64,000 nucleotides of DNA from assembly GCA_022414725.1 (NCBI GenBank), contig CM039466.1, forward strand, positions 17,324,786 through 17,388,785, in the 5' to 3' direction. Of the stretch, positions 4,110 through 34,219 are shown piece by piece. A program made the position numbers and the translations under genes. Below the pieces are notes generated by a model. That model searched no databases. It saw nothing but the letters and a program-made list of their open reading frames with translations, and was not told where the DNA came from. Source of the stretch: Microglena sp. YARC. Taxonomy: Eukaryota; Chlorophyta; Chlorophyceae; Chlamydomonadales; Chlamydomonadaceae. The first letter of the stretch is position 1; the number at the start of each line of letters is the position of its first letter.

Positions 4110-4154
<45 letters not shown>

Positions 4155-4394: not shown

Positions 4395-4425
<31 letters not shown>

Positions 4426-6285
4426 CCCACACACACACCCCACCAATCAACCCAACCCCCACCCTCCACCCACACCCACCCACCCACCCATCAACCCACC
4501 CATCAACTCGACCCACCACCCCCCCATCAACCCACCCATCAACTCGACCCACCACCCCACCCCATCAACCCGACCCACCCACCCCCCACCCCCCAGGCAC
4601 ACACAGCCTCCCCTCCATGGTACGCAGCGCCCCAGCTGGCAGCAGTCAGATCAATATCGGCAACGGGCTGGTAGCCTCCGCCAACTGGGCGTCTGCCCGC
4701 CCATCGACCCACCAACCCACCCTCCCACCCATCAACACACGCCTCACCCACCCACCCACCCATCAACGCACCCCCCACCCATCAACACACCCTCCCCCCC
4801 ACACACCCACACCCCACCAATCAGCCCAACCCCCACCCTCCACCCACACACCCACCCATCAACCCACACCCACCCCACCCCATCAACCCTCCCCACCCCA
4901 CCCCCCACCCCCCAGGCACACACAGCCTCCCCTCCATGGTACGCAGCGCCCCAGCTGGCAGCAGTCAGATTATTATCGGCAACGGGCTGGTAGCCTCCGC
5001 CAACTGGGCGTCTGCCCGCCCATCGTCCACATTGTGCAATGACTTGGGTGGGGCAGGGGGCATGACTAATGGTTTCCTTCCAGAGGGGGCAGACCCCAGT
5101 CAGGCTTCCATGTCTGGCGCTGCAGGGACCAGCGGGGGGGCCAAGGCCAAGGGGGGCGGCTTCTCTGCCTTTGGGAATTTCGGGAAGGAGCTGAACAACA
5201 GCCTCAATATCATCATGCAGGTGGGAAGGTTGGTCTGTGGGAGGGGTGGTGGGCAAGGGGCGGCGGTGGTTGGGGTGCAGGGACCAGTGAGAAAGGCAAG
5301 GCAAGGCTAGAGGGGTGGGGTGGGGGGTGGGGTGGGGCGGCGGTGGTTGGGGTGCAGGGACCAGTGGGAAAGGCAAGGCAAGGCAAGGCTAGAGGGGTGG
5401 TGGGTGGGTGGGTGGGGGGGGGGGGGCTGTTTTGCCTTGGATAAGTTTGGGAAGGAGCTGAACAACAGCCTCAACATCATCATGCATGCAGGTGGGTGGG
5501 AGGGGGGGGGGGGGGGGGGGGGAGTAGGGCAAGAAGGGGCGGTGGTTGGGGTGTAGGAACCATTGGGGGGGCCAAGGCCAAGGGGGGGCGGCTTCTCTGC
5601 CCTGGAGAATTCCGGGAAGGAGCTGAACAACAGCCTCAACATCATCGTACAGGTGGGTGGGTAGGTGGGAGGGGGGGCAAGAAAATCATCATTCAAGTGT
5701 GTGTTTGTGTGTGGTAGTAGTGGTGTGTGGTAGAATAAGTGTGTGTGGTAGCGAAGGAAGGGTGTGGGGTAGTAGTGGCAGCAGGAGGGTTGTTGAGTGC
5801 TTGGATTCTTTAGGGTTGGGTGTGGGGTGAGGCAAGAAAACATATGAGGCCTTACAAGGATTGTAAGATTCTGGAATCACAGCTTTTCCTTCCAAACACC
5901 CCCCCACCCCCACACACCCACCGTGCAAACACACACACATACCCCCCCCCCCCCCCCACACACACACACGCACACACACACGCACACACACACACATACC
6001 TCCCCCACCCCCACCACATGCGCACACACACCCCACACACTACCCCAACAGGATTTCAAGGGCCCCAAGAGCTCGTCTGCCAACCTAGTGGAGTCCCAAT
6101 ACCGCAGCCGGTCCACAAACGCCCTCAGCTCATCTCAAGCACAACAGCAGCAGCAACAGCAGCAGCCTCAGCCTCAGCAACAACAACATCAACAGCAGCA
6201 ACAACAAAGCAGTGGTGCGAGTAGTAGCCAAACCCCTGGCCAGGACCCAACATCCCTTCCACAGGTAGGATATTATTATTATTAC

Positions 6286-6321: not shown

Positions 6322-9300
6322 TATTATTATTGTCATGTATCCTCACATCCTCATACATCCTTATTTACATCCTTATATCCACAACAACAACAACAACAAA
6401 AAAACAACAAAAACAGCAACAGCAACAACAACATAGCAGCGATGCAAGTTCCAGCCGATCCCCTAGCCACAACCCAACATCCCTTCTAAACCACTCACAC
6501 ACCCGTCAGGGTTGGGAGGCTAAGGTAGACAAGGCCACGCAGCGAATCTTCTACGTGGACCACAACACAAAGACCACGTCATGGGAGCGCCCCACCCTAC
6601 CAGAACCCCCACCCTCCCCGGCACCGCCGCAACAAGCCGGAAGCCAGCTAGTGCAAGCAAGTGGGCAGTCCGTTTTAGGGGGTTTTCGCCATTTTGGAAG
6701 TTTAACTGCAGGCGCTACTCCTGGGCAGAGCGATCGGAATCGGCTTGGGCCCGATTCAGCTGGAGACGAGGGCATTAGCCAGAGGTGAGTTCAGCTGTTG
6801 TTGTGTTGTTATTTTATTTTTCATTCTATTTTATCGTGTTGTGTTGAGCGGTGTTATGTTATGGTTGTGTTATGTTATGGTTATGCTTATGTGTTGTTAT
6901 TCTATTTGTTGTTTTATTGTCTTGTGTTATGTTATGGTTGTGTTATGTGATGGTTATGGTTATGTGTTGTTATTGTATTTGTTGTTTTATTGTCTTGTGT
7001 TATGTTATGGTTGTGTTGTCTCATGTTATGGTTATGTGTTGTTATTGTATTTGTTGTTTTATTGTCTTGTGTTATGTTATGGTTGTGTTGTCTCATGTTA
7101 TGGTTATGTGTTGTTATTGTATTTGTTGTTTTATTGTCTTGTGTTATGTTATGGTTGTGTTGTCTCATGTTATGGTTATGTGTTGTTATTGTATTTGTTG
7201 TTTTATTGTCTTGTGTTATGTTATGGTTGTGTTGTCTCATGTTATGGTTATGTGTTGTTATTGTATTTGTTGTTTTATTGTCTTGTGTTATGTTATGGTT
7301 GTGTTGTCTCATGTTATGGTTATGTGTTGTTACTTTAATTTTTATTGTGTTGTGCTATGGTTGGGAGATTTGCATGTATGTGAAACGCTTACCCTACCCC
7401 AACCAACCTAACCAACCATACCCCACCATCACACCTCATGTACACCACACCACACCACCCTACATCACTGTACACAACACAACACCACCCCTTACCTCAT
7501 CCTCAGCCCCCTACCAAACTTCTGTTGTTTTGTTTTTTTGTTTTAACCAACCATACCCCACCACCACACCTCATGTACACCACACCACCCTACATCACTG
7601 TACACAACACAACACCACCCCTTACCTCATCCTCAGCCCCCTACCAAACTTCTTTTGTTGTGTTTTTTGTTTTAACCAACCATACCTCACCACCACACCT
7701 CATGTACACCACACCACAAAACCCTACATCACCGTACACAACACAACACCACTCATTACCTCATCCTCAGCCCCCTACCAATTTTTTTTTGTTTTTTTGT
7801 TAACCAACCATATCCCACCATCACACCTCATGTACACCACACCACACCGCACCACACCACCCTATCTCACCCCACCCCACACAACAACACACCACACCAC
7901 ACCACACAACAACACCCCTAACCCCATCCTCAAGCCGCAGTGAAGCAGAGCGTGAGATGTGGGAGCCCCTCAGCCCATGGTGCATGATGGCAGCAGGGGT
8001 GTTCAAGTTTGACCACCCCATCTAACCTCACCTCGCACAACACAATACAACACAAAAACAAGCCCAAACCCACACCACCCCCACTCCCTCCCAGAAGCCG
8101 CAGTGAAGGGAGCCCCTGAGCCCATGGTGCATGGTTGGAGTAGAAGTGAAGAAGCTTCATCACCCCATGTAACCTCACCTCACACAACACAATACAACAC
8201 AAAAACAAGCCCAAACCCACACCACCCCCACTCCCTCCCAGAAGCCGCAGTGAAGGGAGCCCCTGAGCCCATGGTGCATGATTGGAGTAGAAGTGAAGAA
8301 GCTTCATCACCCCATGTAACCTCACCTCACACAACACAATACAACACAAAAACAAGCCCAAACCCATACCACCCCCACTCCCTCCCAGAAGCCGCAGTGA
8401 AGGGAGCCCCTGAGCCCATGGTGCATGATTGGAGTAGAAGTGAAGAAGCTTCATCACCCCATGTAACCTCACCTCACAAAACACAATACAACCCAAAAAC
8501 AAGCCCAAACCTACACCACCCCCACTCCCTCTCAGAAGCCGCAGTGAAGCAGAGCGTGAGATGTGGGAGCCCCTAAGCCCATGGTGCATGATGGCGGCAG
8601 GGGTGAAGAAGTTTGGGCGCCGTATTCATCCTGATGCGCTCTACTCCATGGCAGAGCTCAACCTCATCAACGGCGACATGAGTGCTTGGCTGTACACAGG
8701 TGGGTCTTCGATAGTGTCCGGTTGACTTTGACTTTGATTAACATACATGGTCTATCAGCCTCTTCAGGCTTCTGACTTTATGTGTCAACGGTGACATGAG
8801 TGCTTGGCTATGCACAGATGGGTCTTAGAGTGTGAGTTTGACATAGAGTTTGATTACCGTACATGGTCTATCAGCCTCTTCAGGCTTCTGACTTAATGTA
8901 TGAGTGTTTCAACGGCGACATGAGTGCTTGGCTATACACAGGTGGGTCTTAGAATTTATGGGTTAGGCTTTGAATTTGATTACCATACATGGTCTGTCAG
9001 CCTCCTCAGGCATCTGACTCTCTGACTCTGCGTGAGTGGCTCTTTATGGTGGAGCTCAACCTCATTAACGGCGACATGAGTGCTTGGCTGTACACAGGTG
9101 GGTCTTGGAGAGTGAATTTGACATCGAGTTTGATTACTGTATATGGTCTATCAGCCTCTTCAGGTTTCTGACTTGATGTATGAGTGTTTCTGAAAGGTTG
9201 TCGTCCACGAGCTTGTCCATGTTCTATTGTTCACCACCACCATCATCACCATCACCGCCATTACCACCACCATGTGCTGTGTGGCCATGGCGGAGCTCAA

Positions 9301-12300
9301 CCATCAACGGCGACATGGGTGCTTGGCATACACAGGTGGGTCATAGAGAGTGGGAGTTTGACTTTGAGTTTGATCACCGTACATAGTGTTCTTCTGACTC
9401 TCTGTGTGAGTAGGTCTTCATGACGGAGCTCAACCTCATCAGCAACACAGTGAGTGCTTGGCTGTACATAGGTTGGTCTTAGAGAGTGTGAGTTTGATTA
9501 CATGGTCAACAACATCTTTTTCAGGCTTCCGACTCTCAGGGTGAGTGGGTCTTCATGGCAGAGCTCAAGCTCATCAACTGGAACCTGAGTGCCTGCCTAA
9601 TCAGGTAGGAATTAAACAGTTTGAGTTGAGATTGAGTTTTTGGCGGAGCCCCCCCTTCTGGGGGGCGGGAGCCCCCATGTTTACCCATTTGTCCGTCCAT
9701 CCATCCATCCGTCTGACCGAGATGAAGCCCGACACGTCAGCCAACGGCCTCGTAACTAACTCGCTTCCGTTACCACCTGTCACTCCCTCGCGATCACTCT
9801 CCGCCATTTTTTAGCGTCGCAGGCGACGCTGCATAGAACTTGTATGACGTGGTCTTTCAGCTTCTACAGACTGCTCGCCGTCTGTATGTGTGGCTCTAGA
9901 AGGCTGTCGTCCATGTGTGCAAACATAAACGCTTGAGCACTACATTCTCAAAACTGAATTGCAGTACCAGCATGAGTAAATACATATATGCCAAATCATA
10001 TGCCAAACCAACTTGCAAAAAGCAACACACAAAACGAATACACCAGTTTTTGTGGTTGGCCCCAGTGCAAGCAAACGGGCTGGCCCCCTCAACCTCACGC
10101 TTCGTCATAAGGCGTGCTACTTTTTTTTTTTTTCACCGACCCAATGAACAAAACTGATCCACTCAACTAAAACGCACAAATCCAACTTGCTTTGTGTAAC
10201 GACATGGATTGTTACTAAACCATTTCAACATTCGCCAAAGGAGTTCTATATAGAGTCAGAGTACTGATTCCTTTAGTACATGTGTCGATCTATGCAGTTA
10301 CGCTTTGCACATACGTACCTGCAACTTCCCCAGCCAAGTTTACAGACATATACGCCTTGCACATACGTACCTGCAACTTCCCCAGCCAAGTTTACAGACA
10401 CATACGCTTTGCACATACGTACCTGCAACTTCCCCAGCCAAGTTTACAGACACATACGCTTTGCACATACGTACCTGCAACTTCCCCAGCCAAGTTTACA
10501 GACACATACGCTAACGCAATACATTCTCAATACTGAATTGCAGTACCAGCTTGAATACATTCATATATGCCAAATCATATGCCAAACCGTCTAGCAAAAA
10601 GCAACACGCAAAACAAATTCACCAGCCCAATGAAGCTAGCAAACCAATGAACACAACTGACCCACTAAACTAAAACGGAAATAAAATAACACAACATTAA
10701 ACACAATTCAATTAACTTAATTAAAATACATTGAATTAAGGATTTGAATCATTTCATTCGGGTCGCGCCTCCAGACGCCCTTAATGAACACAACTGACCC
10801 ACTAAACTAAAACGGAAAATTCCCACTCGCTTTGCACATGCATAGCTGCAGCTTCTCAATAAATACACAGCGAACCAATACACAAACGTTACAACCTGGT
10901 TACAAGCAAAACATGCTAACAAAGCTTAAAATTTACTAACCAAACTAAAACATAAAATTCTCACTTGCTTGGCTCGTATATAGGTTCCCAAGCCATGGAC
11001 AGCGAATCAATAAACAAACATAACAAGCAAAACATGCTAACCAAACTAGAACATAAAATTCTCATTCGCTTTACTCGTGTAGGTTGCCAAGGCATGCACA
11101 GCAAACCAGCAAACAATCTTTACAAGCAAAGCATGCTAACCAAACTAGAACATAAAATTCTCATTCGCTTTACTCATGTAGGTTGCCAAGGCATGCACAG
11201 TGAACCAACAAACAAACTTTACAAGCAAAACATGCTAACCAAACTAAAACATAAAATTCTCTTTCGCTTTACTCGTGTAGGTTGCCAATGCATGCACAGC
11301 TAACCAGCAAACAAACTTTACAAGCAAAGCATGCTAACCAAACTAGAACATAAACTTCTCATTCGCTTTACTCGTGTAGGTTGCCAAGGCATGCACAGCG
11401 AACCAGCAAACAAACTTTACAAGCAAAGCATGCTAACCAAACTAGAACATAAACTTCTCATTCGCTTTACTCGTGTAGGTTGCCAAGGCATGCACAGCGA
11501 ACCAACAAACAAACTTTACAAGCAAAACATGCTAACCAAACTAAAACATAAACTTCTCATTCACTTTACTCGTGTAGGTTGCCAAGGCATGCACAGCTAA
11601 CCAGCAAACAAACTTTACAAGCAAAGCATGCTAACCAAACTAGAACATAAAATTCTCATTCGCTTTACTCGTGTAGGTTGCCAAGGCATGCACAGCTAAC
11701 CAGCAAACAAACTTTACAAGCAAAGCATGCTAACCAAACTAGAACATAAACTTCTCATTCGCTTTACTTGTGTAGGTTGCCAAGGCATGCACAGCTAACC
11801 AGCAAACAAACTTTACAAGCAAAACATGCTAACCAAACTAGAACATAAACTTCTCATTCGCTTTACTCATGTAGGTTGCCAAGGCATGCACAGCGAACCA
11901 ACAAACAAACTTTACAAGCAAAACATGCTAACCAAACTAGAACATAAACTTCTCATTCGCTTTACTCATGTAGGTTGCCAAGGCATGCACAGCGAACCAA
12001 CAAACAAACTTTACAAGCAAAACATGCTAACCAAACTAGAACATAAACTTCTCATTCGCTTTACTCATGTAGGTTGCCAAGGCATGCACAGTGAACCAAC
12101 AAACAAACTTTACAAGCAAAACATGCTAACCAAACTAAAACATGATCTTCTCATTCGCTTTACTCGTGTAGGTTGCCAAGGCATGCACAGCTAACCAGCA
12201 AACAAATTTTACAAGCAAAACATGCTAACCAAACTAGAACATAAAAATCTCATTCGCTTTACTCGTGTAGGTTGCCAAGGCATGCACAGCTAACCAACAA

Positions 12301-15300
12301 ACAAACTTTACAAGCAAAACATGCTAACCAAACTAAAACATAAACTTCTCATTCGCTTTACTCGTGTAGGTTGCCAAGGCATGCACAGCTAACCAGCAAA
12401 CAAACTCTACAAGCAAAGCATGCTAACCAAACTAAAACATAAACTTCTCATTCGCTTTACTATGTAGGTTGCCAAGGCATGCACAGCGAACCAACAAACA
12501 AACTTTACAAGCAAAACATGCTAACCAAACTCGAACATAAAATTCTCATTCGCTTTACTCGTGTAGGTTGCCAAGGCATGCACAGCTAACCAGCAAACAA
12601 ACTTTACAAGCAAAGCATGCTAACCAAACTAGAACATAAAATTCTCATTCGCTTTACTCGTGTAGGTTGCCAAGGCATGCACAGCGAACCAACAAACAAA
12701 CCTTACAAGCAAAACATGCTAACCAAACTAGAACATAAAATTCTCATTTGCTTTACTCGTGTAGGTTGCCAAGGCATGCACAGCAAACCAACAAACAAAC
12801 TTTACAAGCAAAACATGCTAACCAAACTAGAACATAAAATTCTCATTCGCTTTACTCGTGTAGGTTGCCAAGGCATGCACAGCTAACCAGCAAACAAACT
12901 TTACAAGCAAAGCATGCTAACCAAACTAAAACATAAACTTCTCATTCGCTTTACTATGTAGGTTGCCAAGGCATGCACAGCGAACCAACAAACAAACTTT
13001 ACAAGCAAAACATGCTAACCAAACTAGAACATAAAATTCTCATTCGCTTTACTCGTGTAGGTTGCCAAGGCATGCACAGCGAACCAACAAACAAACTTTA
13101 CAAGCAAAGCATGCTAACCAAACTAGAACATAAAATTCTCATTCGCTTTACTCGTGTAGGTTGCCAAGGCATGCACAGCTAACCAGCAAACAAACTTTAC
13201 AATCAAAGCATGCTAACCAAACTAAAACATAAAATTCTCATTCGCTTTACTATGTAGGTTGCCAAGGCATGCACAGCGAACCAGCAAACAAACTTTACAA
13301 GCAAAACATGCTAACCAAACTAGAACATAAAATTCTCATTCGCTTTACTCGTGTAGGTTGCCAAGGCATGCACAGCTAACCAGCAAACAAACTTTACAAG
13401 CAAAACATGCTAACCAAACTAGAACATAAACTTCTCATTCGCTTTACTCGTGTAGGTTGCCAAGGCATGCACAGCTAACCAACAAACAAACTTTACAAGC
13501 AAAACATGCTAACCAAACTAAAACATAAAATTCTCATTCGCTTTACACGTGTAGGTTGCCAAGGCATGCACAGCTAACCAGCAAACAAACTTTACAAGCA
13601 AAGCATGCTAACCAAACTAAAACATAAACTTCTCATTCGCTTTACTATGTAGGTTGCCAAGGCATGCACAGCTAACCAGCAAACAAACTTTACAAGCAAA
13701 ACATGCTAACCAAACTAGAACATAAACTTCTCATTCGCTTTACTCGTGTAGGTTGCCAAGGCATGCACAGCTAACCAACAAACAAACTTTACAAGCAAAA
13801 CATGCTAACCAAACTAAAACATAAAATTCTCATTCGCTTTACTCGTGTAGGTTGCCAAGGCATGCACAGCTAACCAGCAAACAAACTTTACAAGCAAAGC
13901 ATGCTAACCAAACTAAAACATAAACTTCTCATTCGCTTTACTATGTAGGTTGCCAAGGCATGCACAGCGAACCAACAAACAAACTTTACAAGCAAAACAT
14001 GCTAACCAAACTAGAACATAAAATTCTCATTCGCTTACTCGTGTAGGTTGCCAAGCATGCACAGCTAACCAACAAAACAAACTTTACAAGCAAAGCATGC
14101 TAACCAAACTGAACAAAAACTTCTCATTCGCTTTACTCATGTAGGTTGCCAAGGCATGCACAGCTAACCAGCAAACAAACTTTACAAGCAAAGCATGCTA
14201 ACCAAACTAAAACATAAACTTCTCATTCGCTTTACTAGGTTGCCAAGGCATGCACAGCGAACCAACAAACAAACTTTACAAGCAAAACATGCTAACCAAA
14301 CTAGAACATAAAATTCTCATTCGCTTTACTCGTGTAGGTTGCCAAGGCATGCACAGCTAACCAGCAAACAAACTTTACAAGCAAAGCATGCTAACCAAAC
14401 TAAACATAAAACTTCTCATTCGCTTTACTCGTGTAGGTTGCCAAGGCATGCACAGCAACCAACAAACAAACTTTACAAGCAAAGCATGCTAACCAAACTA
14501 GAACATAAAACTTCTCATTCGCTTTACTCGTGTAGGTTGCCAAGGCATGCACAGCGAACCAACAAACAAACTTTACAAGCATGCTAACCAAACTAAAACA
14601 TAAAATTCTCATTCGCTTTACTCGTGTAGGTTTGCCAAGGCATGCACAGCGAACCAGCAAACAAACTTTACAAGCAAAGCATGCTAACCAAACTAGAACA
14701 TAAACTTCTCATTCGCTTTACTTGTACAAGGCATGCACAGCGAAACCAGCAAACAAACTTTACAAGCAAAGCATGCTAACCAAACTAGAACATAAACTTC
14801 TCATTCGCTTACTCGTGTAGGTTGCCAAGGCATGCACAGCTAAACCAACAAACAAACTTTACAAGCAAAACATGCTAACCAAACTAAAAACATAAAATTC
14901 TCATTCGCTTTACTCATGTAGGTTGCCAAGGCATGCACAGCTAACCAAAAACAACTTTACAAGCAAAGCATGCTAACCAAACTAAACATAAAACTTCTCA
15001 TTCGCTTTACTATGTAGGTTGCCAAGCATGCACAGCGAACCAACAAACAAACTTTACAAGCAAAGCATGCTTAGAACATAACTCATTCGCTTTACTCGTG
15101 TAGGTGCCAAGGCATGCACAGCGAACCAACAAACAAACCTTACAAGCAAAGCATGCTAACCAAACTAGAACATAAACTTCTCATTCGCTTTACTCGTGTA
15201 GGTTGCCAAGGCATGCACAGCTAACCAGCAAACAAACTTTACAAGCAAGCATGCTAACCAAACTAAAACATAAAATTCTCATTCGCTTTACTCATGTAGG

Positions 15301-18300
15301 TTGCCAAGCATGCACAGCGAACCAACAAACAAACTTTACAAGCAAAACATGCTAACCAAACTAAACATAAACTTCTCATTCGCTTTACTCATGTAGGTTG
15401 CCAAGGCATGCACAGCGAACCAACAAACAAACTTTACAAGCAAAGCATGCTAACCAAACTCGAACATAAACTTCTCATTCGCTTTACTCGTGTAGGTTGC
15501 CAAGGCATGCACAGCTAACCAGCAAACAAACTTTACAAGCAAAAGCATGCTAACCAAACTAGAACATAAAATTCTCATTCGCTTTACTCGTGTAGGTTGC
15601 CAAGGCATGCACAGCGAACCAACAAACAAACTTTACAAGCAAAACATGCTAACCAAACTAAACATAAAATTCTCATTCGCTTTACTTCGTGTAGGTTGCC
15701 AAGGCATGCACAGCTAACCAAGCAAACAAACTTTACAAGCAAAGCATGCTAACCAAACTAGAACATAAACATTCTCATTCGCTTTACTCATGTAGGTTGC
15801 CAAGGCATGCACAGCGAACCAACAAACAAACTTTACAAGCAAAACATGCTAACCAAACTAGAACATAAACTTCTCATTCGCTTTACTCGTGTAGGTTGCC
15901 AAGCATGCACAGCTAACCAGCAAACAAACTTTACAAGCAAAAGCATGCTAACCAAACTAGAACATAAACTTCTCATTCGCTTTACTCATGTAGGTTGCCA
16001 AGGCATGCACAGCGAACCAACAAACAAACTTTACAAGCAAAACATGCTAACCAAACTAGAACATAAAATTCTCATTCGCTTTACTCGTGTAGGTTGCCAA
16101 GGCATGCACAGCGAACCAACAAACAAACTTTACAAGCAAAGCATGCTAACCAAACTCGAACATAAAATTCTCATTCGCTTTACTCGTGTAGGTTGCCAAG
16201 GCATGCACAGCTAACCAGCAAACAAACTTTACAAGCAAAGCATGCTAACCAAACTAGAACATAAAATTCTCATTCGCTTTACTCATGTAGGTTGCCAAGG
16301 CATGCACAGCGAACCAACAAACAAACTTTACAAGCAAAACATGCTAACCAAACTAAAACATAAAATTCTCATTCGCTTTACTCGTGTAGGTTGCCAAGGC
16401 ATGCACAGCTAACCAGCAAACAAACTTTACAAGCAAAGCATGCTAACCAAACTAAAACATAAACTTCTCATTCGCTTTACTCATGTAGGTTGCCAAGGCA
16501 TGCACAGCGAACCAACAAACAAACTTTACAAGCAAAACATGCTAACCAAACTAAAACATAAAATTCTCATTCGCTTTACTCGTGTAGGTTGCCAAGGCAT
16601 GCACAGCGAACCAACAAACAAACTTTACAAGCAAAGCATGCTAACCAAACTCGAACATAAAATTCTCATTCGCTTTACTCGTGTAGGTTGCCAAGGCATG
16701 CACAGCTAACCAGCAAACAAACTTTACAAGCAAAGCATGCTAACCAAACTAAAACATAAACTTCTCATTCGCTTTACTATGTAGGTTGCCAAGGCATGCA
16801 CAGCGAACCAACAAACAAACTTTACAAGCAAAACATGCTAACCAAACTCGAACATAAAATTCTCATTCGCTTTACTCGTGTAGGTTGCCAAGGCATGCAC
16901 AGCTAACCAGCAAACAAACTTTACAAGCAAAGCATGCTAACCAAACTAGAACATAAAATTCTCATTCGCTTTACTCATGTAGGTTGCCAAGGCATGCACA
17001 GCGAACCAACAAACAAACTTTACAAGCAAAACATGCTAACCAAACTAAAACATAAAATTCTCATTCGCTTTACTCGTGTAGGTTGCCAAGGCATGCACAG
17101 CGAACCAACAAACAAACTTTACAAGCAAAGCATGCTAACCAAACTAGAACATAAAATTCTCATTCGCTTTACTCGTGTAGGTTGCCAAGGCATGCACAGC
17201 GAACCAACAAACAAACTTTACAAGCAAAGCATGCTAACCAAACTAGAACATAAAATTCTCATTCGCTTTACTCATGTAGGTTGCCAAGGCATGCACAGCT
17301 AACCAGCAAACAAACTTTACAAGCAAAAGCATGCTAACCAAACTAGAACATAAAATTCTCATTCGCTTTACTCGTGTAGGTTGCCAAGGCATGCACAGCG
17401 AACCAACAAACAAACTTTACAAGCAAAGCATGCTAACCAAACTAGAACATAAAAATTCTCATTCGCTTTACTCGTGTAGGTTGCCAAGGCATGCACAGCT
17501 AACCAGCAAACAAACTTTACAAGCAAAAGCATGCTAACCAAACTAAAACATAAAATTCTCATTCGCTTTACTCGTGTAGGTTGCCAAGGCATGCACAGCG
17601 AACCAGCAAACAAACTTTACAAGCAAAGCATGCTAACCAAACTAGAACATAAAATTCTCATTCGCTTTAATGTAGGTTGCCAAGGCATGCACAGCTAACC
17701 AGCAAACAAACTTTACAAGCAAAGCATGCTAACCAAAACTAAAACATAAAAATTCTCATTCGCTTTACTCGTGTAGGTTGCCAAGGCATGCACAGCTAAC
17801 CAACAAACAAACTTTACAAGCAAAGCATGCTAACCAAACTAGAACATAAAATTCTCATTCGCTTTACTCATGTAGGTTGCCAAGGCATGCACAGCTAACC
17901 AACAAACAAACTTTACAAGCAAAACATGCTAACCAAACTAAAACATAAAACTCTCATTCGCTTTACTCATGTAGGTTGCCAAGGCATGCACAGCTAACCA
18001 ACAAACAAACTTTACAAGCAAAGCATGCTAACCAAACTAAAACATAAAATTCTCATTCGCTTTACTCGTGTAGGTTGCCAAGGCATGCACAGCTAACCAG
18101 CAAACAAACTTTACAAGCAAAGCATGCTAACCAAACTAGAACATAAACTTCTCATTCGCTTTACTATGTAGGTTGCCAAGGCATGCACAGCGAACCAACA
18201 AACAAACCTTACAAGCAAAACATGCTAACCAAACTAGAACATAAAATTCTCATTCGCTTTACTCGTGTAGGTTGCCAAGGCATGCACAGCGAACCAACAA

Positions 18301-21300
18301 ACAAACTTTACAAGCAAAGCATGCTAACCAAACTCAAACATAAAATTCTCATTCGCTTTACTCGTGTAGGTTGCCAAGGCATGCACAGCTAACCAGCAAA
18401 CAAACTTTACAAGCAAAGCATGCTAACCAAACTAGAACATAAACTTCTCATTCGCTTTACTCATGTAGGTTGCCAAGGCATGCACAGCGAACCAACAAAC
18501 AAACTTTACAAGCAAAACATGCTAACCAAACTAAAACATAAAATTCTCATTCGCTTTACTCGTGTAGGTTGCCAAGGCATGCACAGCTAACCAGCAAACA
18601 AACTTTACAAGCAAAGCATGCTAACCAAACTAGAACATAAAATTCTCATTCGCTTTACTCGTGTAGGTTGCCAAGGCATGCACAGCGAACCAACAAACAA
18701 ACTTTACAAGCAAAACATGCTAACCAAACTAAAACATAAAATTCTCATTCGCTTTACTCGTGTAGGTTGCCAAGGCATGCACAGCTAACCAGCAAACAAA
18801 CTTTACAAGCAAAGCATGCTAACCAAACTAGAACATAAAATTCTCATTCGCTTTACGCATGTAGGTTGCCAAGGCATGCACAGCGAACCAACAAACAAAA
18901 TTTACAAGCAAAACATGCTAACCAAACTAAAACATAAAATTCTCATTCGCTTTACTCGTGTAGGTTGCCAAGGCATGCACAGCTAACCAACAAACAAACT
19001 TTACAAGCAAAGCATGCTAACCAAACTAGAACATAAACTTCTCATTCGCTTTACTCATGTAGGTTGCCAAGGCATGCACAGCTAACCAACAAACAAACTT
19101 TACAAGCAAAACATGCTAACCAAACTAAAACAAAAAACTCTCATTCGCTTTACTCATGTAGGTTGCCAAGGCATGCACAGCTAACCAACAAACAAACTTT
19201 ACAAGCAAAGCATGCTAACCAAACTAGAACATAAAATTCTCATTCGCTTTACTCGTGTAGGTTGCCAAGGCATGCACAGCGAACCAGCAAACAAACTTTA
19301 CAAGCAAAACATGCTAACCAAACTAAAACATAAAATTCTCATTCGCTTTACTCGTGTAGGTTGCCAAGGCATGCACAGCTAACCAACAAACAAACTTTAC
19401 AAGCAAAGCATGCTAACCAAACTAGAACATAAAATTCTCATTCGCTTTACTCATGTAGGTTGCCAAGGCATGCACAGCTAACCAACAAACAAACTTTACA
19501 AGCAAAGCATGCTAACCAAACTAAAACATAAAATTCTCATTCGCTTTACTCGTGTAGGTTGCCAAGGCATGCACAGCTAACCACAAACAAACTTTACAAG
19601 CAAAGCATGCTAACCAAACTAGAACATAAAATTCTCATTCGCTTTACTCGTGTAGGTTGCCAAGGCATGCACAGCGAACCAACAAACAAACTTTACAAGC
19701 AAAACATGCTAACCAAACTAGAACATAAAATTCTCATTCGCTTTACTCGTGTAGGTTGCCAAGGCATGCACAGCTAACCAGCAAACAAACTTTACAAGCA
19801 AAGCATGCTAACCAAACTAGAACATAAAATTCTCATTCGCTTTACTCATGTAGGTTGCCAAGGCATGCACAGCTAACCAACAAACAAACTTTACAAGCAA
19901 AACATGCTAACCAAACTAGAACATAAAATTCTCATTCGCTTTACTCGTGTAGGTTGCCAAGGCATGCACAGCTAACCACAAACAAACTTTACAAGCAAAA
20001 GCATGCTAACCAAACTAGAACATAAAATTCTCATTCGCTTTACTCGTGTAGGTTGCCAAGGCATGCACAGCTAACCAGCAAACAAACTTTACAAGCAAAA
20101 CATGCTAACCAAACTAAAACATAAAATTCTCATTCGCTTTACTCATGTAGGTTGCCAAGGCATGCACAGCGAACCAACAAACAAACTTTACAAGCAAAAC
20201 ATGCTAACCAAACTAGAACATAAAATTCTCATTCGCTTTACTCGTGTAGGTTGCCAAGGCATGCACAGCTAACCAGCAAACAAACTTTACAAGCAAAGCA
20301 TGCTAACCAAACTAAAACATAAACTTCTCATTCGCTTTACTATGTAGGTTGCCAAGGCATGCACAGCGAACCAACAAACAAACTTTACAAGCAAAACATG
20401 CTAACCAAACTAGAACATAAACTTCTCATTCGCTTTACTCGTGTAGGTTGCCAAGGCATGCACAGCTAACCAGCAAACAAACTTTACAAGCAAAGCATGC
20501 TAACCAAACTAGAACATAAAACTCTCATTCGCTTTACTCATGTAGGTTGCCAAGGCATGCACAGCGAACCAACAAACAAACTTTACAAGCACAACATGCT
20601 AACCAAACTAAAACATAAAATTCTCATTCGCTTTACTCGCGTAGGTTGCCAAGGCATGCACAGCTAACCAGCAAACAAACTTTACAAGCAAAGCATGCTA
20701 ACCAAACTAAAACATAAACTTCTCATTCGCTTTACTCATGTAGGTTGCCAAGGCATGCACAGCGAACCAACAAACAAACTTTACAAGCAAAACATGCTAA
20801 CCAAACTAGAACATAAACTTCTCATTCGCTTTACTCGTGTAGGTTGCCAAGGCATGCACAGCGAACCAACAAACAAAATTTACAAGCAAAACATGCTAAC
20901 CAAACTAGAACATAAAACTCTCATTCGCTTTACTCATGTAGGTTGCCAAGGCATGCACAGCGAACCAACAAACAAACTTTACAAGCACAACATGCTAACC
21001 AAACTAAAACATAAAATTCTCATTCGCTTTACTCGCGTAGGTTGCCAAGGCATGCACAGCTAACCAGCAAACAAACTTTACAAGCAAAGCATGCTAACCA
21101 AACTAAAACATAAACTTCTCATTCGCTTTACTCATGTAGGTTGCCAAGGCATGCACAGCGAACCAACAAACAAACTTTACAAGCAAAACATGCTAACCAA
21201 ACTAGAACATAAACTTCTCATTCGCTTTACTCGTGTAGGTTGCCAAGGCATGCACAGCTAACCAGCAAACAAACTTTACAAGCAAAACATGCTAACCAAA

Positions 21301-24300
21301 CTAAATCATGAACTTCTCATTTGTTTTACTCGTGTAGGTTGCCAAGGCATGCACAGCGAACCAACAAACAAACTTTACAAGCAAAACATGCTAACCAAAC
21401 TAGAACATAAACTTCTCATTCGCTTTACTCGTGTAGGTTGCCAAGGCATGCACAGCGAACCAACAAACAAACTTTACAAGCAAAACATGCTAACCAAACT
21501 AAAACATGAACTTCTCATTTGCTTTACTCGTGTAGGTTGCCAAGGCATGCACAGCGAACCAACAAACAAACTTTACAAGCAAAACATGCTAACCAAACTA
21601 AAACATAAAATTCTCTTTACTCGTGTAGGTTGCCAAGGCATGCACAGCAAACCAACAAACAAACTTTACAAGCAAAGCATGCTAACCAAACTAAAACATA
21701 AAATTCTCTTTACTCGTGTAGGCTGCCAAGGCATGCACAGCAAACCAACAAACAAACTTACAAGCAAAACATGCTAACCAAACTAAAACATAAAATTCTC
21801 ATTCGCTTTACTCGTGTAGGTTGCCAACGCATGCACAGCGAACCAACAAACAAACTTTACAAGCAAAGCATGCTAACCAAACTAGAACATAGACTTCTCA
21901 TTCGCTTTACTCGTGTAGGTTGCCAAGGCATGCACAGCGAACCAACAAACAAACTTTACAAGCAAAACATTCTTACGAAACTTAAACATCAAATTCTCAC
22001 TCGCTTTGCTCATGTAGGCTCCCAAGCCATGCACAGCGAACGGATTCTAATTTTTGAGCCTGAGACCTCAAAACTGCGTAAAGCTGGGGTAGGATCGTAC
22101 GGCAACATGCTGGTAAGTGAAAGTGTAAGAAATAGTGGAAGTAAAATATGCGGATAAGTGTAAGTGGAAGTAAAAGTGGAAGTAAAACACGCTGTGAAGT
22201 TAAAGTGTAAAATTGGAAGTAGAATATAGGAAGTAAGACATGCTGGTTAATATAAGTAGTATCTTAATATATGTATCTCTGCTACCATCATGTATGTATG
22301 TTATGTCACGTCTGCTGCCATCCTGTTTTACCGTGTATCCGATACCATTACTGATACCGGCACACAGCAACCAATACAACATGCCTACCCCCCTCACCTA
22401 CACCCCCACCCCTTCCCACTCCCATTGCCCACCCCCCATCCAACACCTCCATCCCCATCCCCTACCGCCACCTATCCCCATCCCCATTACCCACCCCCCA
22501 ACCCCAACCCCATCCCTATCCCCTTCCACCCCCACCCCCACCCCCACCCCATTACCCGCCCCCAATCTCCCACCTCCAACCCCATCCCTATCCCCCTTCC
22601 AACCCCATTCCCCACCCCCTGTCCTCCATCCCCCACCACCCCCATCCCCCATCCCCAGTGCCCACCCCCTTCCACCTCCAACCCCATCCATATCCCCCCT
22701 TCCACCCCAACCCCATCCATATCCCCCCTTCCACCCCAACCCCATCCATATCCCCCGTCCCCCCCTGTCCAGGTTGGCATCAAGCGTCGCTACAACAATG
22801 TGTTGCTTGACACACCAACACGCAGCAACTGACACAAAATGCCAAACCCCTTTCACCCCTATCCCCCGCCCCCACCCCCATTGCCTTACCTCTCCCCCCT
22901 GTCCATGTTGGCATCAAGCGCCGCTACAACAACGTGTTGGTTGATAACGACAAGCAGCAACATATCAAGATAGTCCTAACCCCTTTCACCCCATCCCCCA
23001 CCCCACCCATATTGCCCGCCCTCTACCCCCACCCCAATTGCCTAACCTCTCCCCCCCCTGTCCAGGTTGGCATCAAGCGTCGCTACAACTACGTCTTGGT
23101 TGAGACTGACAAGCAGCTACAGATTGAAATATGCCTAACCCCTCCCCCCCCCCCCCCCCCCCCCCCCCCCCATCCCTCACCGCCACCCATCCCCATTACC
23201 ATTACCCACCCCAATCCTCCACCTCCAACCCCATCCCTATCCCCCTTCCACCCTGCCCAGGTTGGCATCAAGCGTCGCTACAACAATGTGTTGGTTGACA
23301 CACCAACACGCAGCAACCAACACAACATGCCCAACCCCTTTCACCCCCATTCCCCACCCCCATTGCCTACCTTCCATCCCCCACCGCCACCCCCATTGCC
23401 TACCTTCCATCCCCCACCGCCACCCCCATTGCCGAACCTCTCCTCCCCTGTCCAGGTTGGCATCAAGCGTCGCTACAACAACGTGTTACCAATACCGTTA
23501 CTGATACCAACTCACAGCAACGAATACAACATACCTACCCCCCCCCCCCCCTCTGTCCAGGTTGGCATCAAGCGTCGCTACAACAACGTGTTACCAATAC
23601 CGTTACTGATACCAACTCACAGCAACGAATACAACATACCTACCCCCCCCCCCTCTGTCCAGGTTGGGATCAAACGTCGCTACAACAACGTGTTGGTTGA
23701 CACCGACAAGCAGCAACAGATTGAAATTTTCCTCGGCATGAAGCACATGGTGTACTTCTGTAATGCCTACCTGCCATACAAGGAGGAGCCCTCGATACCC
23801 CTCGACTTTCCCGAAACCGACGACGACGAAGATCCAGTGGGGCAGATAGATTACACGGCGAGTGTCCTGGCAGGGGCAGCCACAGCCACGAGACAGTGAG
23901 TGTGTGTGTGTAGGGCGGGGGGGGGGGGGGGGCATGTGTGTGTGTACATGTGTGTTTGGGGTTGGGGGGGAGGGGGGGAGGGGGGGGGGCATGTGTGTGT
24001 GTGAGTGCTTCAACACCAATGCCCTCATGGAAGAGTTCCACAATTTGTTCTCGTCCCTTGCGACGAGCTAGGGACTTGATGCTTGTGTATGTTTAAACAT
24101 GTGTACATACTCTCACCCTTACCTCTCCCCAACCACCTCTCTCGCAGGCCCCCTGACCGCAGCTTCAACACCAACGCCCTCATGGAGGAGTTCCACCGCT
24201 CCCAGACCACGCCGAACCTATCCTCCCAGAAAGGAGCCCCCCAAACCAGCAGTCCAGCAAGCACCCCCACTATGGGTGGGGGGGCCCACGGCTTGCCTAG

Positions 24301-24343
24301 GCCGGAGTCTCAGGGGACAGTGCTGCACGACCCTCTTTCATAG
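93..24343 (+). CDS. SAC9: SAC9-like phosphoinositide phosphatase, multi-exon, 5' partial
   Basis: Ten exons (93-348, 913-1117, 2676-2909, 4916-5220, 6052-6264, 6510-6784, 8536-8699, 22018-22112, 23663-23895, 24148-24343) join with matching phases at every junction and leave about 724 residues open. The order matches plant SAC9: SAC N-terminal parts, catalytic CX5R(T) loop NCADSLDRTN, WW domain, GDMSAWLYTG-SQAMHSERI, then RRYNNVLVDTDKQQQIEIFLG split around its middle. SAC phosphatases remove phosphates from membrane phosphoinositides; Arabidopsis SAC9 is linked to PI(4,5)P2 turnover. The start lies upstream of the window. Plant SAC9 is about 1,600 residues with a long C-terminal region that is not seen here, so this copy is either short or continues through a donor I did not find. 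Several exon edges are tandemly duplicated, and an 11-kb satellite sits inside one intron. Identification is firm; exact exon use is inferred. Confidence 0.88.
349..912 (+). repeat. Intron A-B: CA-rich low-complexity
   Basis: The intron runs from GTAAGT to ACTGCAG and is mostly (CA)n, CTCACAC and poly-C tracts, with an uninterrupted CA run near 487-530 and a C-run near 879-899. No exon or gene is seen in it. Confidence 0.8.
913..1117 (+). CDS. SAC9: SAC9 exon B (LDWHEMDK segment)
   Basis: Acceptor CTGCAG, donor GTGGGT. Phase 0 in, phase 1 out. The product contains LPLTYIALDWHEMDKVLG and FWSSIRDMLPAHGFALGT, matching the SAC9 region with the YDWH motif. The last ~80 bp and the donor are repeated seven more times downstream; this is the only copy with the full exon and an acceptor. 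Confidence 0.85.
1118..2360 (+). repeat. Donor-anchored array of exon B 3' end, about 8 copies
   Basis: Each unit carries the last ~80 bp of exon B (from ATGCTGCCAGCACAC to TCTTCAG), the donor GTGGGT and about 90 bp of G/T-rich intron. Donor GTs lie at 1118 (true exon), 1288, 1473, 1642, 1838, 2020 and 2181, so spacing is 161-196 bp. A final decayed copy near 2269-2350 reads TTCAAGTACG and has lost the donor. The third copy starts further upstream in the exon (about 1364). Copies lack the exon's acceptor, so they look like pseudo-exon ends. Confidence 0.9.
2361..2675 (+). repeat. Acceptor-anchored array of exon C 5' end, 3 copies
   Basis: Units of 109 and 127 bp contain CCATCCTCATCC, a C-rich tract, CCCCCCAG and exon start GTGGYCTCCCCTCCCA. 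Acceptors precede 2440, 2549 and 2676 (the last is the real exon). Confidence 0.85.
2676..2909 (+). CDS. SAC9: SAC9 exon C (catalytic loop)
   Basis: Phase 1 in, phase 1 out; donor GTAAGT at 2910. The product holds LIRYNCADSLDRTNVSSFFG and IQVFVEQCRELDIG. NCADSLDRT is the CX5RT phosphatase loop, with catalytic Cys and Arg present, in the SAC9 form (Ser where most SAC proteins have Cys). A second in-frame acceptor (CTGCAG before 2745) would give a shorter exon in the same phase. I prefer 2676 because the upstream acceptor array is built around that junction. Confidence 0.88.
2910..3408 (+). repeat. Donor-anchored array of exon C 3' end, 3 further copies
   Basis: Copies lie at about 3006-3062 (donor lost), 3103-3210 (donor GTAAGT at 3211) and 3300-3353 (donor at 3354). 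The middle copy extends back through the catalytic loop and reads NCAALLDRTN. None has a convincing acceptor immediately upstream. Confidence 0.85.
3409..4915 (+). repeat. Acceptor-anchored array of exon D 5' end, 4 decoys plus partial
   Basis: Copies start after CCCAG at 3630, 3922, 4208 and 4597, and the real exon starts at 4916 (spacing 286-389 bp). Each carries about 105 bp of exon (SLPSMVRSAPAGSSQI to NWASARPS) and then diverges into C-rich intron (CACCCACCCATC) instead of continuing. A tail-only fragment is at about 3409-3435. A C-run of about 40 lies near 3469-3510 and another near 4110-4154. Confidence 0.9.
4916..5220 (+). CDS. SAC9: SAC9 exon D (Gly/Ser-rich linker)
   Basis: This last array copy is the one that continues as coding sequence. 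Phase 1 in, phase 0 out; donor CAG|GTGGGA. The product has SLPSMVRSAPAGSSQI, a Gly/Ala/Lys-rich stretch (GGAKAKGGGFSAFGNFG) and KELNNSLNIIMQ. It has no recognisable domain and lies between the catalytic loop and the WW domain, where plant SAC9 also has a variable linker. Confidence 0.72.
5221..6051 (+). repeat. Donor-anchored array of exon D 3' end, then CA-rich intron
   Basis: Copies of the GKELNNSLNII end with donor lie at about 5430-5491 (GCATGCAG|GTGGGT) and 5556-5652 (GTACAG|GTGGGT). Shorter pieces of GGTTGGGGTGCAGGGACCAG are at 5267-5300 and 5340-5375. From about 5690 the intron is GT-rich, then CA-rich to the acceptor at 6051. Confidence 0.8.
6052..6264 (+). CDS. SAC9: SAC9 exon F (Ser/Gln-rich linker)
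   Basis: Acceptor CCAACAG, donor ACAG|GTAGGA, phase 0 on both sides. The product starts DFKGPKSSSANLVESQYRSR, followed by a Gln-rich low-complexity tract encoded by mixed CAA/CAG codons, then SSGASSSQTPGQDPTSLPQ. A diverged copy of the Gln-rich end without a donor lies at about 6381-6489. Confidence 0.72.
6265..6509 (+). repeat. Intron with ATT microsatellite and exon F tail copy
   Basis: A (TAT/ATT)n run spans about 6269-6331. A CAA-rich copy of the end of exon F follows at about 6381-6489. Confidence 0.75.
6510..6784 (+). CDS. SAC9: SAC9 exon G (WW domain)
   Basis: Acceptor CCGTCAG, donor GTGAGT at 6785; phase 0 in, phase 2 out. The first ~33 residues form a WW domain: GWEAKVD, FYVDHNTKTTSWERP, with both signature Trp residues and the closing Pro. 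WW domains bind proline-rich ligands. A Pro-rich tract (LPEPPPSPAPP) and a Ser/Gly-rich linker follow. A WW domain just after the SAC catalytic loop is diagnostic for SAC9. Confidence 0.88.
6860..7335 (+). repeat. 72-bp tandem repeat in intron G-H
   Basis: The motif TCATGTTATGGTTATGTG recurs at 7021, 7093, 7165, 7237 and 7309, exactly 72 bp apart, with degenerate copies upstream from about 6860. The period is a multiple of three, so long hydrophobic ORFs appear by chance. Confidence 0.92.
7390..7870 (+). repeat. 129-135-bp tandem repeat in intron G-H
   Basis: The motif ACCAACCATA begins near 7411, 7546, 7675 and 7804. Units hold CACACCTCATGTACACCACA, CATCCTCAGCCCC and a T-rich tract. Each CATCCTCAG resembles the acceptor context of the next exon. 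Confidence 0.85.
7925..8535 (+). repeat. Acceptor-anchored array of exon H 5' end, 147-bp period
   Basis: GAAGCCGCAGTGAAG occurs at 8094, 8241, 8388 and 8535, exactly 147 bp apart, and a first copy lies at about 7932 without the AGA of the junction. Middle copies carry CCCAG, a 15-bp-deleted exon start and then diverge at TGGAGTAGAAGTGAAG. The last copy is the true exon. Confidence 0.92.
8536..8699 (+). CDS. SAC9: SAC9 exon H (NLINGDMSAWLYTG)
   Basis: Acceptor CTCAG, donor ACACAG|GTGGGT; phase 2 in, phase 1 out. The product has SRSEAEREMWEPLSPW, VKKFGRRIHPDAL and AELNLINGDMSAWLYTG. The last segment aligns with the plant SAC9 stretch just before the GSKAMHS motif, which is supplied here by the exon at 22,018. 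Confidence 0.86.
8700..9610 (+). repeat. Donor-anchored array of exon H 3' end, 6 further copies
   Basis: Copies of GGCGACATGAGTGCTTGG...ACACAG|GTGGGTCTTAG end near 8818, 8941, 9098, 9333, 9471 and 9604. The copies ending at 9098-9604 also include the upstream GAGCTCAACCTCAT. Between them lies TCAGCCTCTTCAGGCTTCTG. Several donors are altered (ATGGGT at 8818, GTTGGT, GTAGG). Confidence 0.88.
9637..9833 (+). other. Cluster of GC-rich hairpins
   Basis: CCCCCC-CTTCT-GGGGGG near 9649-9665 and AGCGTCGC-AG-GCGACGCT near 9813-9830 are perfect inverted repeats. TGGCGGAG near 9641 and its complement CTCCGCCA near 9798 also pair. It could be a small foldback element; no clear target-site duplication was found. 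Confidence 0.5.
10048..10140 (+). repeat. Dispersed repeat ending in T-run, copy 1
   Basis: GGCCCCAGTGCAAGCAA, CCTCAACCTCACGCTTCGTC and ATAAGGCG followed by a T-run recur in reverse orientation at about 24,890-24,960. The T-run tail suggests a retroposed fragment; the family is not recognised. Confidence 0.6.
10303..10512 (+). repeat. 52-bp minisatellite, 4 copies
   Basis: TTGCACATACGTACCTGCAA starts at 10305, 10357, 10409 and 10461, exactly 52 bp apart, with a broken fifth copy. The unit (CGCTTTGCACATA...CTGCAACTTC...) resembles the degenerate leading monomer of the 99-bp satellite near 10,830-10,870. Confidence 0.92.
10680..10795 (-). repeat. AT-rich dispersed repeat with GGCGYCTGGAGGCGC foldback
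   Basis: The reverse complement reads AAGGGCGTCTGGAGGCGCG, GAATGAAATGATTC and CCTTAATTCAATGTATTTTA. It matches the + strand at 28,760-28,900 over more than 100 bp. Confidence 0.75.
10966..22017 (+). repeat. 99-bp satellite, roughly 110 copies, built on a 3' splice site
   Basis: Each monomer holds CATGCTAACC (CTAAC, a branch-point match), then TTCTCATTCGCTTTACTC, GTGTAG and GTTGCCAAGGCATGCACAGC. The array runs directly into the SAC9 exon at 22,018, whose acceptor context (TTCTCACTCGCTTTGCTC, ATGTAG, GCTCCCAAGCCATGCACAGC) is the same sequence. The branch adenosine sits about 42 nt before the AG. A leading unit at 10,984 reads GTTCCCAAGCCATGGACAGC, closer to the real exon than interior copies. 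Two classes alternate: GAA (open) and TAA (stop) after CACAGC. The 99-bp period keeps the frame, so ORFs up to about 160 codons appear; I do not treat them as genes. Confidence 0.95.
22018..22112 (+). CDS. SAC9: SAC9 exon I (GSQAMHSERI)
   Basis: Acceptor CATGTAG, donor CTG|GTAAGT; phase 1 in, phase 0 out, 95 bp. The product is (G)SQAMHSERILIFEPETS, then LRKAGVGSYGNML. Plant SAC9 has TGSKAMHSQIL at this place, directly after the GD...LYTG segment, so this supplies the otherwise missing link between exons H and J. Its 5' end is the parent of the 99-bp satellite. Confidence 0.85.
22113..22360 (+). other. Intron I-J, start: GTAAG/GGAAGT repeats
   Basis: A short purine-rich direct repeat (AAGTGTAAG, GTGGAAGTAAA) spans about 22,113-22,240. 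Nothing else is recognised before the C-rich array. Confidence 0.5.
22361..23662 (+). repeat. Acceptor-anchored array of exon J 5' end, 6 decoys
   Basis: GTTGGCATCAAGCGTCGCTA follows an acceptor at 22,773, 23,066, 23,261, 23,456 and 23,561, and the true exon starts at 23,663. Another copy near 22,906 has the acceptor mutated (CCATG). Spacing is about 102-195 bp. Decoys diverge after about 40-70 bp of exon into CAGCAAC..AACATGCC and C-rich tracts. A fragment at 22,342-22,390 matches the intronic part only. Confidence 0.92.
23663..23895 (+). CDS. SAC9: SAC9 exon J (RRYNNVLVD...FLG motif)
   Basis: Acceptor TGTCCAG, donor GACA|GTGAGT; phase 0 in, phase 2 out. VGIKRRYNNVLVDTDKQQ and IEIFLGMK match the RYY.N...D..RQ..I..FLG block that closes SAC domains (as in FIG4 and SAC9). 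YFCNAYLPYKEEPSIP and an acidic patch (FPETDDDEDP) follow. Confidence 0.88.
23896..24147 (+). repeat. Intron J-K with partial copy of exon K start
   Basis: GT-rich and G-rich tracts. At 24,008-24,050 CTTCAACACCAATGCCCTCA and GGAAGAGTTCCACA copy the start of exon K without its acceptor. Confidence 0.75.
24148..24343 (+). CDS. SAC9: SAC9 exon K, provisional last exon
   Basis: Acceptor TCTCGCAG; the phase fits exon J (CA|G). The product reads PPDRSFNTNALMEEFHRS, then a Ser/Thr/Pro/Gly-rich tail ending at TAG. The acceptor is well supported. The 3' limit is not: plant SAC9 continues for hundreds of residues, and the GAGTCTCAGGGGACAGTGCT segment here is itself in an array, which in this gene usually marks a splice junction. 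A donor at GGACA|GTGCTG is possible but weak. Confidence 0.55.
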
Positions 24344-24699
24344 ACAGCCCTTTTGTTTGTGTGTGTGTATATGTGTGTGTGGGGTGGGGTGGGGGGGTCA
24401 GCAGCTGCCAGGCAGTTGCTGGAGTCTCAGGGGAGAGTGCTGCACGACCCTCTATCATAGGCAGCCCTTTTGTGTGTGTGTGTATATTTGTGTGTGGGGT
24501 GGGGGGTGGGGGTGGGGGGGTCAGCAGCTGCCAGGTAGTTGCCGGAGTCTCAGGGGACAGTGCTGCACGACCCTCTAGCATAGACAGCCTTTTTTTTGTG
24601 TGTGTATATGTGTGTGTGGGTGTGGGTGTGGGTGTGTGGGGGGGGGGCATGTGTGTGCTCAAATACCAACCCCCTCACAGCCACGAGACAGTGAGTGTA

Positions 24700-24746
<47 letters not shown>

Positions 24747-27260: not shown

Positions 27261-27548
27261 ATGGTATGTATGCATGTATGTATGTATGTATGTATGTATG
27301 TATGTATGTATGTATGTATGTATGTATGTATGTATGTATGTATGTATGTATGTATGTATGTATGTATGTATGTATGTATGTATGTATGTATGTATGTATG
27401 TATGTATGTATGCATGTATGTATGTATGTATGTATGTATGTATGTATGTATGTATGTATGTATGTATGTATGTATGTATGTATGTATGTATGTATGTATG
27501 TATGTATGTATGTATGTATGTATGCATTTATGTATGTATGTATGTTTG
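27261..27548 (+). repeat. TATG tetranucleotide microsatellite
   Basis: About 285 bp of almost perfect (TATG)n with rare GCATG interruptions near 27,269, 27,411 and 27,523. Long MYVC and HTYI ORFs on both strands are artefacts of the period. Confidence 0.97.
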
Positions 27549-27589
27549 CATGTTACAGTCCAGGCAGGAGTAAAACAAAACTGCAAACG

Positions 27590-28754: not shown

Positions 28755-28935
28755 TACTGTATAAGGGCGCCTGGAGGCGCGTCCTGAATGAAATGATTCG
28801 GATCCTTAATTCAATGTATTTTAATTAATTAATTTAATTGCATTTAATGTTGTGTTATTTTAATTTGATTTATTCCTTTCCATTTAATTTAATTAACGTG
28901 ATTTGAATGCATGTAATTGTTTTAAATTGTATCAA
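28755..28935 (+). repeat. AT-rich dispersed repeat with GGCGCC foldback
   Basis: AAGGGCGCCTGGAGGCGCGT, GAATGAAATGATTC and CCTTAATTCAATGTATTTTA match 10,680-10,795 in inverse orientation. Confidence 0.75.
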
Positions 28936-28954
28936 TTCGAATAGGATTAAATTT

Positions 28955-29215: not shown

Positions 29216-29224
29216 GCCCAGACA

Positions 29225-34050: not shown

Positions 34051-34219
34051 CAAAACCCAAACACTACTGAAGCACGAATAAATATCACGCACTACAACAC
34101 CACATAACACGATCGCAATCATCTTCTCATTAACACCATCAGTACTAACAATCTCACCATGATCATTATCATCACTCCTACAATTAGAATCATCTATTTC
34201 ACAACCATCACTCCATACT

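Follow-up and report, generated by a model that had tools for sequence, protein, structure and literature searches.

One intron of the green alga Microglena sp. YARC makes it possible to ask by which rule a splice site is chosen where sequence strength gives no guide. The intron, 13,318 nt long, belongs to a gene which we take, from its domain order, to be SAC9-like, and lies within a stretch of 64,000 nucleotides, here termed the window (C5:17324786-17388785 of an assembly of 568 Mb in 2,390 contigs). Inside it stands a tandem array of a 99-bp unit, each copy of which resembles the end of this very intron together with the beginning of the exon that follows, exon G, such that many apparent acceptors precede the true one. 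The explanation favoured here, with a probability of about 0.68, is that the array is a giant minisatellite of the kind called a ‘mirage’, formed from the intron-exon G boundary of this SAC9-like gene, with modest versions of it at other junctions. The principal features are the following.

8536-8699, + strand: exon F, whose donor CAG/gtgggt opens the 13,318-nt intron (in frame in the nine-exon model; intron length).
10801-10880, + strand: a single copy of the exon-G acceptor boundary, older and more diverged, ahead of the array (local score 189; shuffles 84.3, standard deviation 13.4).
10936-22041, + strand: array of 112 units of 99 bp, each a copy of the exon-G acceptor boundary (Tandem Repeats Finder (TRF), wraparound alignment, core-pattern search).
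10984-11010, + strand: exon part of the first array copy, matching the true exon at positions 4 and 10 (alignment).
22018-22112, + strand: true exon G, acceptor catgtag/GC, donor CTG/gtaagt (frame, homologs).

The original prediction, made from the letters of the sequence, was of a satellite of about 110 copies between 10966 and 22112. The array is real, and TRF reports it as a single one with period 99, 112.7 copies and 94% matches, but its true span is 10936-22041. By wraparound alignment to the consensus, junctions begin at 113 places between 10984 and 22018; the one at 22018 is true exon G itself, which leaves 112 decoys, a copy number that is read from one assembly. Each unit joins the final 72 nt or so of the intron to the first 24-27 nt of the exon and thus spans the intron-exon boundary. 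When a 25-nt core pattern is searched for with at most 3 mismatches, it matches 105 times, always on the + strand, between 11078 and 22037, and always within the array or at the true site; the rest of the window has no match, and 100 shuffles gave a mean of 0.00. The series of about 110 intact-looking decoys that had been predicted ahead of the true site is indeed there, with AG kept at 111 of the 112 and CTAAC in 110. In the consensus the AG ends 42 nt after the branch A, as had been proposed, and the supposed pyrimidine-rich stretch is also present (73% over the 22 nt preceding GTAG). What does not hold is the statement that the unit and the true junction are the same sequence, since the true junction is 84.8% identical to the array core, with CTTAC in place of CTAAC and AG/GC in place of the AG/GT found at 110 of the 112 decoys (one decoy likewise has AG/GC).

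The copies are closely alike throughout, with a mean pairwise identity of 96.0% that stays within 95.6-96.6% over lags 1 to 39, and six columns of their alignment are at intermediate frequency. Dimer, or higher-order, structure is weak (an autocorrelation of 0.24 for a lag of 2). Of the 111 steps from one copy to the next, 80 measure exactly 99 and 27 are not a multiple of three. The edge units deviate from the consensus, the first copy being 91.9% and the last 89.9% identical to it; such a pattern, uniform inside and divergent at the ends, is what unequal exchange typically leaves behind. Another long 99-bp array lies on the same contig (L006:1-9457) and has no similarity to the exon-G-boundary monomer.

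The true exon takes its meaning from the gene around it. Nine exons in the window, with bounds set by homology and the GT/AG rules, join into 1,920 nt, or 639 codons with one terminal stop, and the 11.2 kb upstream of the window hold further exons of the SAC9-like gene, including a likely start codon. That SAC9 needs the exon at 22,018 had been suggested at the outset and agrees with this model, in which 22018-22112 links 8536-8699 to 23663-23895 in one open frame. Beyond exons F and G, the model consists of the following.

913-1117, + strand: exon A (nine-exon frame).
2676-2909, + strand: exon B (nine-exon frame), its start placed at 2676 because homologs carry the stretch ERC..GWQ.
4916-5220, + strand: exon C (nine-exon frame).
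6052-6264, + strand: exon D (nine-exon frame).
6510-6784, + strand: exon E (nine-exon frame).
23663-23895, + strand: exon H (nine-exon frame).
24148-24343, + strand: exon I with the stop codon, ending ...DPLS (nine-exon frame).

A homolog search with a 616-aa version of the protein (exon B from 2745, 69 nt shorter and in the same frame) scored 8,000 candidates and returned 54 proteins at E<=0.001, the best with 93% coverage and 48% identity; a SacI-domain protein of Dunaliella salina is among them, and many of the weaker matches are other WW-domain proteins. Eighteen of the 54 were aligned with the window protein to give 19 sequences, one of which is without the exon F-G region. The motif YTGSQAMHS straddles the joint between exons F and G, and its residues T442, S444, A446, M447, H448 and S449 are at least 90% conserved among the 19, land plants included. 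Because this motif is conserved across the aligned homologs, the exon at 22018 belongs to a conserved SAC9-like phosphoinositide-phosphatase protein. The spliced protein contains RYNCADSLDRTN, the SAC catalytic motif, and both Sac and WW domains are present in the aligned homologs. For a rough concatenation put together by hand, Pfam gives a WW domain (E 9.7e-12), a FAM53 match under the cut-off and no match to the Sac domain itself, because much of the Sac part is encoded upstream of the window.

Where, then, did the repeat come from? It had been proposed that the satellite arose from the host gene's own acceptor, and the register, the conserved motif and the bases of the first copy all speak for this. 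The true exon and the array core differ at 5 of 27 exon positions. At exon positions 4 and 10 the core has altered conserved codons (S to C and A to G), whereas the first copy, at 10984, has kept the bases found in the true exon; it sides with the core at positions 2, 25 and 26. The array is thus derived from the gene's own exon-G acceptor boundary, because the unit carries, in register, a coding motif common to algae and land plants, and because at two informative bases the first copy matches the true exon and differs from the homogenised core. Such an in-register conserved coding motif would not come with a satellite of foreign origin and is therefore the main argument for a host origin. A 52-bp repeat at 10299-10512 was considered as an older form of the junction and set aside (z 2.7, non-significant).

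Moreover, exon G is not the only exon with such copies, a point that the original prediction missed. A junction copy was taken as a match to 24 exonic and 16 intronic bases with at most 6 edits on each side, and 28 junctions were searched, 16 in the window and 12 placeable upstream, which together make up part of the gene, some upstream exons not having been placed. In the window, nine of the 16 junctions, donors and acceptors both, are accompanied by copies that lie in the neighbouring intron and to the intron side of the true site: 6, 3, 2 and 5 at the donors of exons A, B, C and F, and 2, 4, 4, 113 (the older copy counted) and 6 at the acceptors of exons B, C, F, G and H. Upstream, copies are found at 4 of 12 junctions (2, 1, 5 and 3), and one further acceptor has a single copy downstream of the exon start. 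In total, 13 of the 28 junctions have copies, with 159 matches against 8 in the reverse-complement and 3 in the reversed controls. The two-sided rule matters in this regard, because controls matched on the exon side only gave more (3 reversed and 17 reverse-complement matches over 18 queries). One distant donor-A match and one donor-E match look like chance.

1118-2180, + strand: six exon-A donor-boundary copies (two-sided junction search).
2366-2675, + strand: two exon-B acceptor-boundary copies, at 2440 and 2549 (two-sided junction search).
2910-3353, + strand: three exon-B donor-boundary copies, one without GT (two-sided junction search).
3630-4915, + strand: four exon-C acceptor-boundary copies (two-sided junction search).
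5221-5652, + strand: two exon-C donor-boundary copies (two-sided junction search).
7932-8535, + strand: four exon-F acceptor-boundary copies, the first without AG at the cut (two-sided junction search).
8700-9610, + strand: exon-F donor-boundary tandem copies with ends at 8817, 8941, 9097, 9335 and 9471, and a donor-like site at 9604 (five within 6 edits on both sides).
22773-23662, + strand: six exon-H acceptor-boundary copies (two-sided junction search).

Six of the eight window introns are touched by copies and are 831-13,318 nt long, whereas the two without them measure 245 and 252 nt and hold, by eye, exon-only remnants. Measured between their innermost copies, the six touched introns span 259 to 1,512 nt. 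Ten of 15 arrays span a junction against 3.8-4.3 expected (0 of 4,000 simulations reached this; P 0.001 without wholly exonic places), an enrichment that is only a hint, because the list was assembled by hand and the introns were shortened to the innermost decoys. Within 24301-24700 the 3' flank also repeats the final part of the last coding exon, and a copy of the exon-H donor end was seen there by eye.

The consequence for splicing is that strength does not explain the choice of acceptor. On a matrix made from the gene's other eight acceptors the true G acceptor scores -3.31, the lowest of the nine, and 108 of the 112 decoys score at least as high. Use of a G decoy would lead to an early stop in 110 of 112 cases, at a median of 56 nt past the joint; the last two (21820 and 21919) would stay in frame to the end, adding residues. 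Of 28 decoys tested at other junctions (copies lacking GT or AG and the site at 9604 left aside, decoy 5490 cut one base short), 24 would stop early and 4 would remain in frame, all four at exon H. As far as the sequence allows this to be judged, then, the outermost sites must be used often enough to make the protein, because the products of the decoys would nearly all stop early. Folding of the RNA was tried as a means of hiding the decoys and rejected, three array units folding like shuffles (z 0.22). Since donor-side and acceptor-side arrays occur within one gene, models of splice-site choice can be separated. A first-come choice would tolerate arrays of donors, the true donor being transcribed first, but not arrays of acceptors, whose true site is the last to be transcribed; recognition across the exon is compatible with either kind, and for this reason we infer that exon definition is the favoured way in which decoys get ignored. 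The exon-G donor, CTG/GTAAGT at 22112, lies 95 nt downstream of the true acceptor.

Several other explanations of the array have to be set against this one. It is very unlikely that the array is a foreign satellite with many copies elsewhere, which came to lie in the intron and resembles the exon start by chance. A long array as such is admittedly not unusual in this genome, because 7 of 20 spaced 10-kb samples hold one longer than 1 kb with a period of at least 40, and tandem repeats make up 31% of these stretches. However, the unit holds 24-27 nt of a conserved coding exon and that exon's own intron end in register, an older diverged copy lies upstream of the array, and the same pattern recurs at other junctions, each with its own sequence. 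The original prediction had named a count of the monomer elsewhere as a check, and 240 kb sampled from the same genome (the twenty 10-kb stretches, spread along contig C5, plus the adjoining 40 kb upstream) do not contain it: consensus 15-mers number 0 there and 6,404 in the window, which argues against a very abundant satellite. No array DNA turned up in viral contigs, prokaryote contigs or phage records, which is weak evidence, as these are the wrong kinds of organism. That the array is instead translated, adding 33-residue repeats to the protein, can scarcely be credited: the 99-nt unit is open in the exon-G frame and the last two decoys would run in frame to the end, but TAA stands in that frame in 53 of the 112 copies, more than a fifth of the spacings (the 27 of 111 given above) break the frame, and the array peptide has no homolog among public proteins (892 candidates, 0 at E<=10).

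The decoys might also be used. If splicing were simply poor, with decoys chosen often, most transcripts degraded and the gene dispensable or decaying, then the high scores of 108 decoys and the premature stops after 110 of them would be expected. Moreover, a public gene model of the same locus, P0006, which is 93-100% identical to most of the exons it covers, includes a decoy copy of exon B (3118-3215) and ends early. Against such decay, the 639-codon frame is intact, GT and AG stand at the intron ends of the model and the conserved motifs are kept, and we regard it as unlikely. Rather unlikely, too, is that some 110 dual-specific sites let the spliceosome remove the intron stochastically in many recursive or nested steps. 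Decoys with AG/GT would act as 3' and then as 5' splice sites, and the true AG/GC, not reusable as a donor, would differ by the single base that serves as the stop signal; in a nested variant the unit would be an intron of about 103 nt, GTAGGT...CTAAC...TAG, because GTAGGT donors overlap the acceptor in the array. In keeping with this, 110 of the 112 decoys have AG/GT where the true site has AG/GC, the donors CAT/GTAGGT and CGT/GTAGGT rank, among 1,895 background GTs, within the top 0.9% and the top 5.1%, and human UBC is a known case of tandem repeats with dual-specific sites (PMC10809524). Yet the donor that would form anew once exon F is spliced to a decoy, CAG/GTTGCC, is ordinary (20% of background GTs score as high), homogenisation by itself accounts for AG/GT in nearly all copies, and one decoy is AG/GC as well.

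A host-derived mirage whose decoys are mostly passed over thus remains the preferred reading, and what weighs against it can be given together. When the entire exon part is compared, the first copy resembles the core (85.2%) slightly more than the true exon (81.5%). The absence of the monomer from 240 kb does not speak against a few other loci. The acceptor and donor weight matrices are small, with 7 or 8 sites. The decoys are not free of nearby donors, because the array holds donor-like GTAGGT sites (27 CAT/GTAGGT and 68 CGT/GTAGGT), and the exon-H decoys (22773-23662) would stay in frame in 4 of the 5 tested, adding 34, 69, 134 or 199 residues. Finally, P0006 is either a gene prediction misled by decoys or a sign that decoys are used, the latter if it rests on RNA.

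With the array, the gene model, its source and the copies at other exons' junctions in hand, the course of events may be pictured as follows. A segment across the intron-exon G boundary would have been tandemly duplicated, and expansion with homogenisation, probably by unequal exchange, would have brought it to about 112 copies. The outermost copy would have stayed the true acceptor, because only that copy keeps the protein. Other junctions of the gene would have undergone the same process more modestly, such that most of its introns are long because boundary duplication acted on them too. The decoys would be mostly ignored through recognition across the exon, because only the last acceptor lies close to a good and correctly placed donor.

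Elsewhere in the window, an element like 'gggcgcctggaggcgcgtcccgaatga' was seen by eye at 28770-30010, downstream of the gene, and inverted at 10755-10790 inside the long intron. A GTAT tetranucleotide run of 72 copies occupies 27264-27553. Two arrays of a related ~52-bp satellite (31188-33436 and 36516-37319) are each followed by related ~75-bp repeats (34219-34447 and 37892-38234), as if a larger segment had been duplicated. Ankyrin-like segments occur at several places in 41772-62001, with units of ~3.8 kb at 48756, 52624 and 56380 that are 90-92% identical. Neither Rfam families at gathering score nor tRNAs are found in the window.

Among known systems, the tandem duplication by which introns are created is alike in that a duplicated intron-exon structure passes on its branch site, tract and acceptor; there, however, a single duplication gives a new intron, whereas here many copies lengthen an existing one. 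The minisatellite of human IFI6 (6-16) reportedly yields several splice donors, as is said to have been described by Turri et al. in 1995. Its splice donors are cited in one sentence of PMC4526556, and as far as that sentence goes this too is an exon-boundary minisatellite with repeated splice sites, albeit on the donor side and with two downstream repeat units said to be used, whereas here the large array is on the acceptor side. The dual-specific arrays of human UBC and VCX3A, in the available part of PMC10809524, likewise have AG/GT in each tandem unit, the UBC unit length being divisible by 3, but UBC units code for protein and their sites are used, whereas the present units are intronic, about half contain a stop and their sites are putative. 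In the giant introns of Drosophila Y genes (PMC6508621) satellite DNA also lies inside an intron that needs removal, although derivation from the gene's own junction is not stated for that satellite in the portion available. Tandem repeats are in excess near intron ends, especially in Chlamydomonas and Volvox, according to the accessible part of Zhao et al. (PMC3887541), which would fit introns growing by duplication of their ends. Indeed, the present gene suggests that introns may grow via repeated duplication of their own ends.

The closest counterparts are the amphioxus ‘mirages’ of Adh3 and the globin genes BflGb6 and BflGb9, described, in what is available of PMC3087553, as minisatellite-like tandem copies of intron-exon boundaries that are unstable in length between alleles or cells and reportedly leave regular splicing undisturbed. 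Here as there, the unit spans the boundary, at 5' or 3' ends of introns (here the donors of A, B, C and F and the acceptors of B, C, F, G and H), AG/GT signals are present in many units, and a homogenised core is bordered by deviating edge units. The differences, within that same account, are that regular splicing was reported for amphioxus whereas the algal case is read from DNA, and that two haplotypes of the BflGb6 mirage have 6 and 3 units, each 150-160 bp long, against some 112 units of 99 bp and 13 of 28 junctions of one gene in a green alga. Among open-licence papers we found no comparably large boundary array, nor any in a green alga. The array would in these terms be a mirage-type minisatellite, of a known kind, and what is new about it is its occurrence in a green alga and its very large size, far beyond that of boundary minisatellites with readable unit counts (6 and 3 units).

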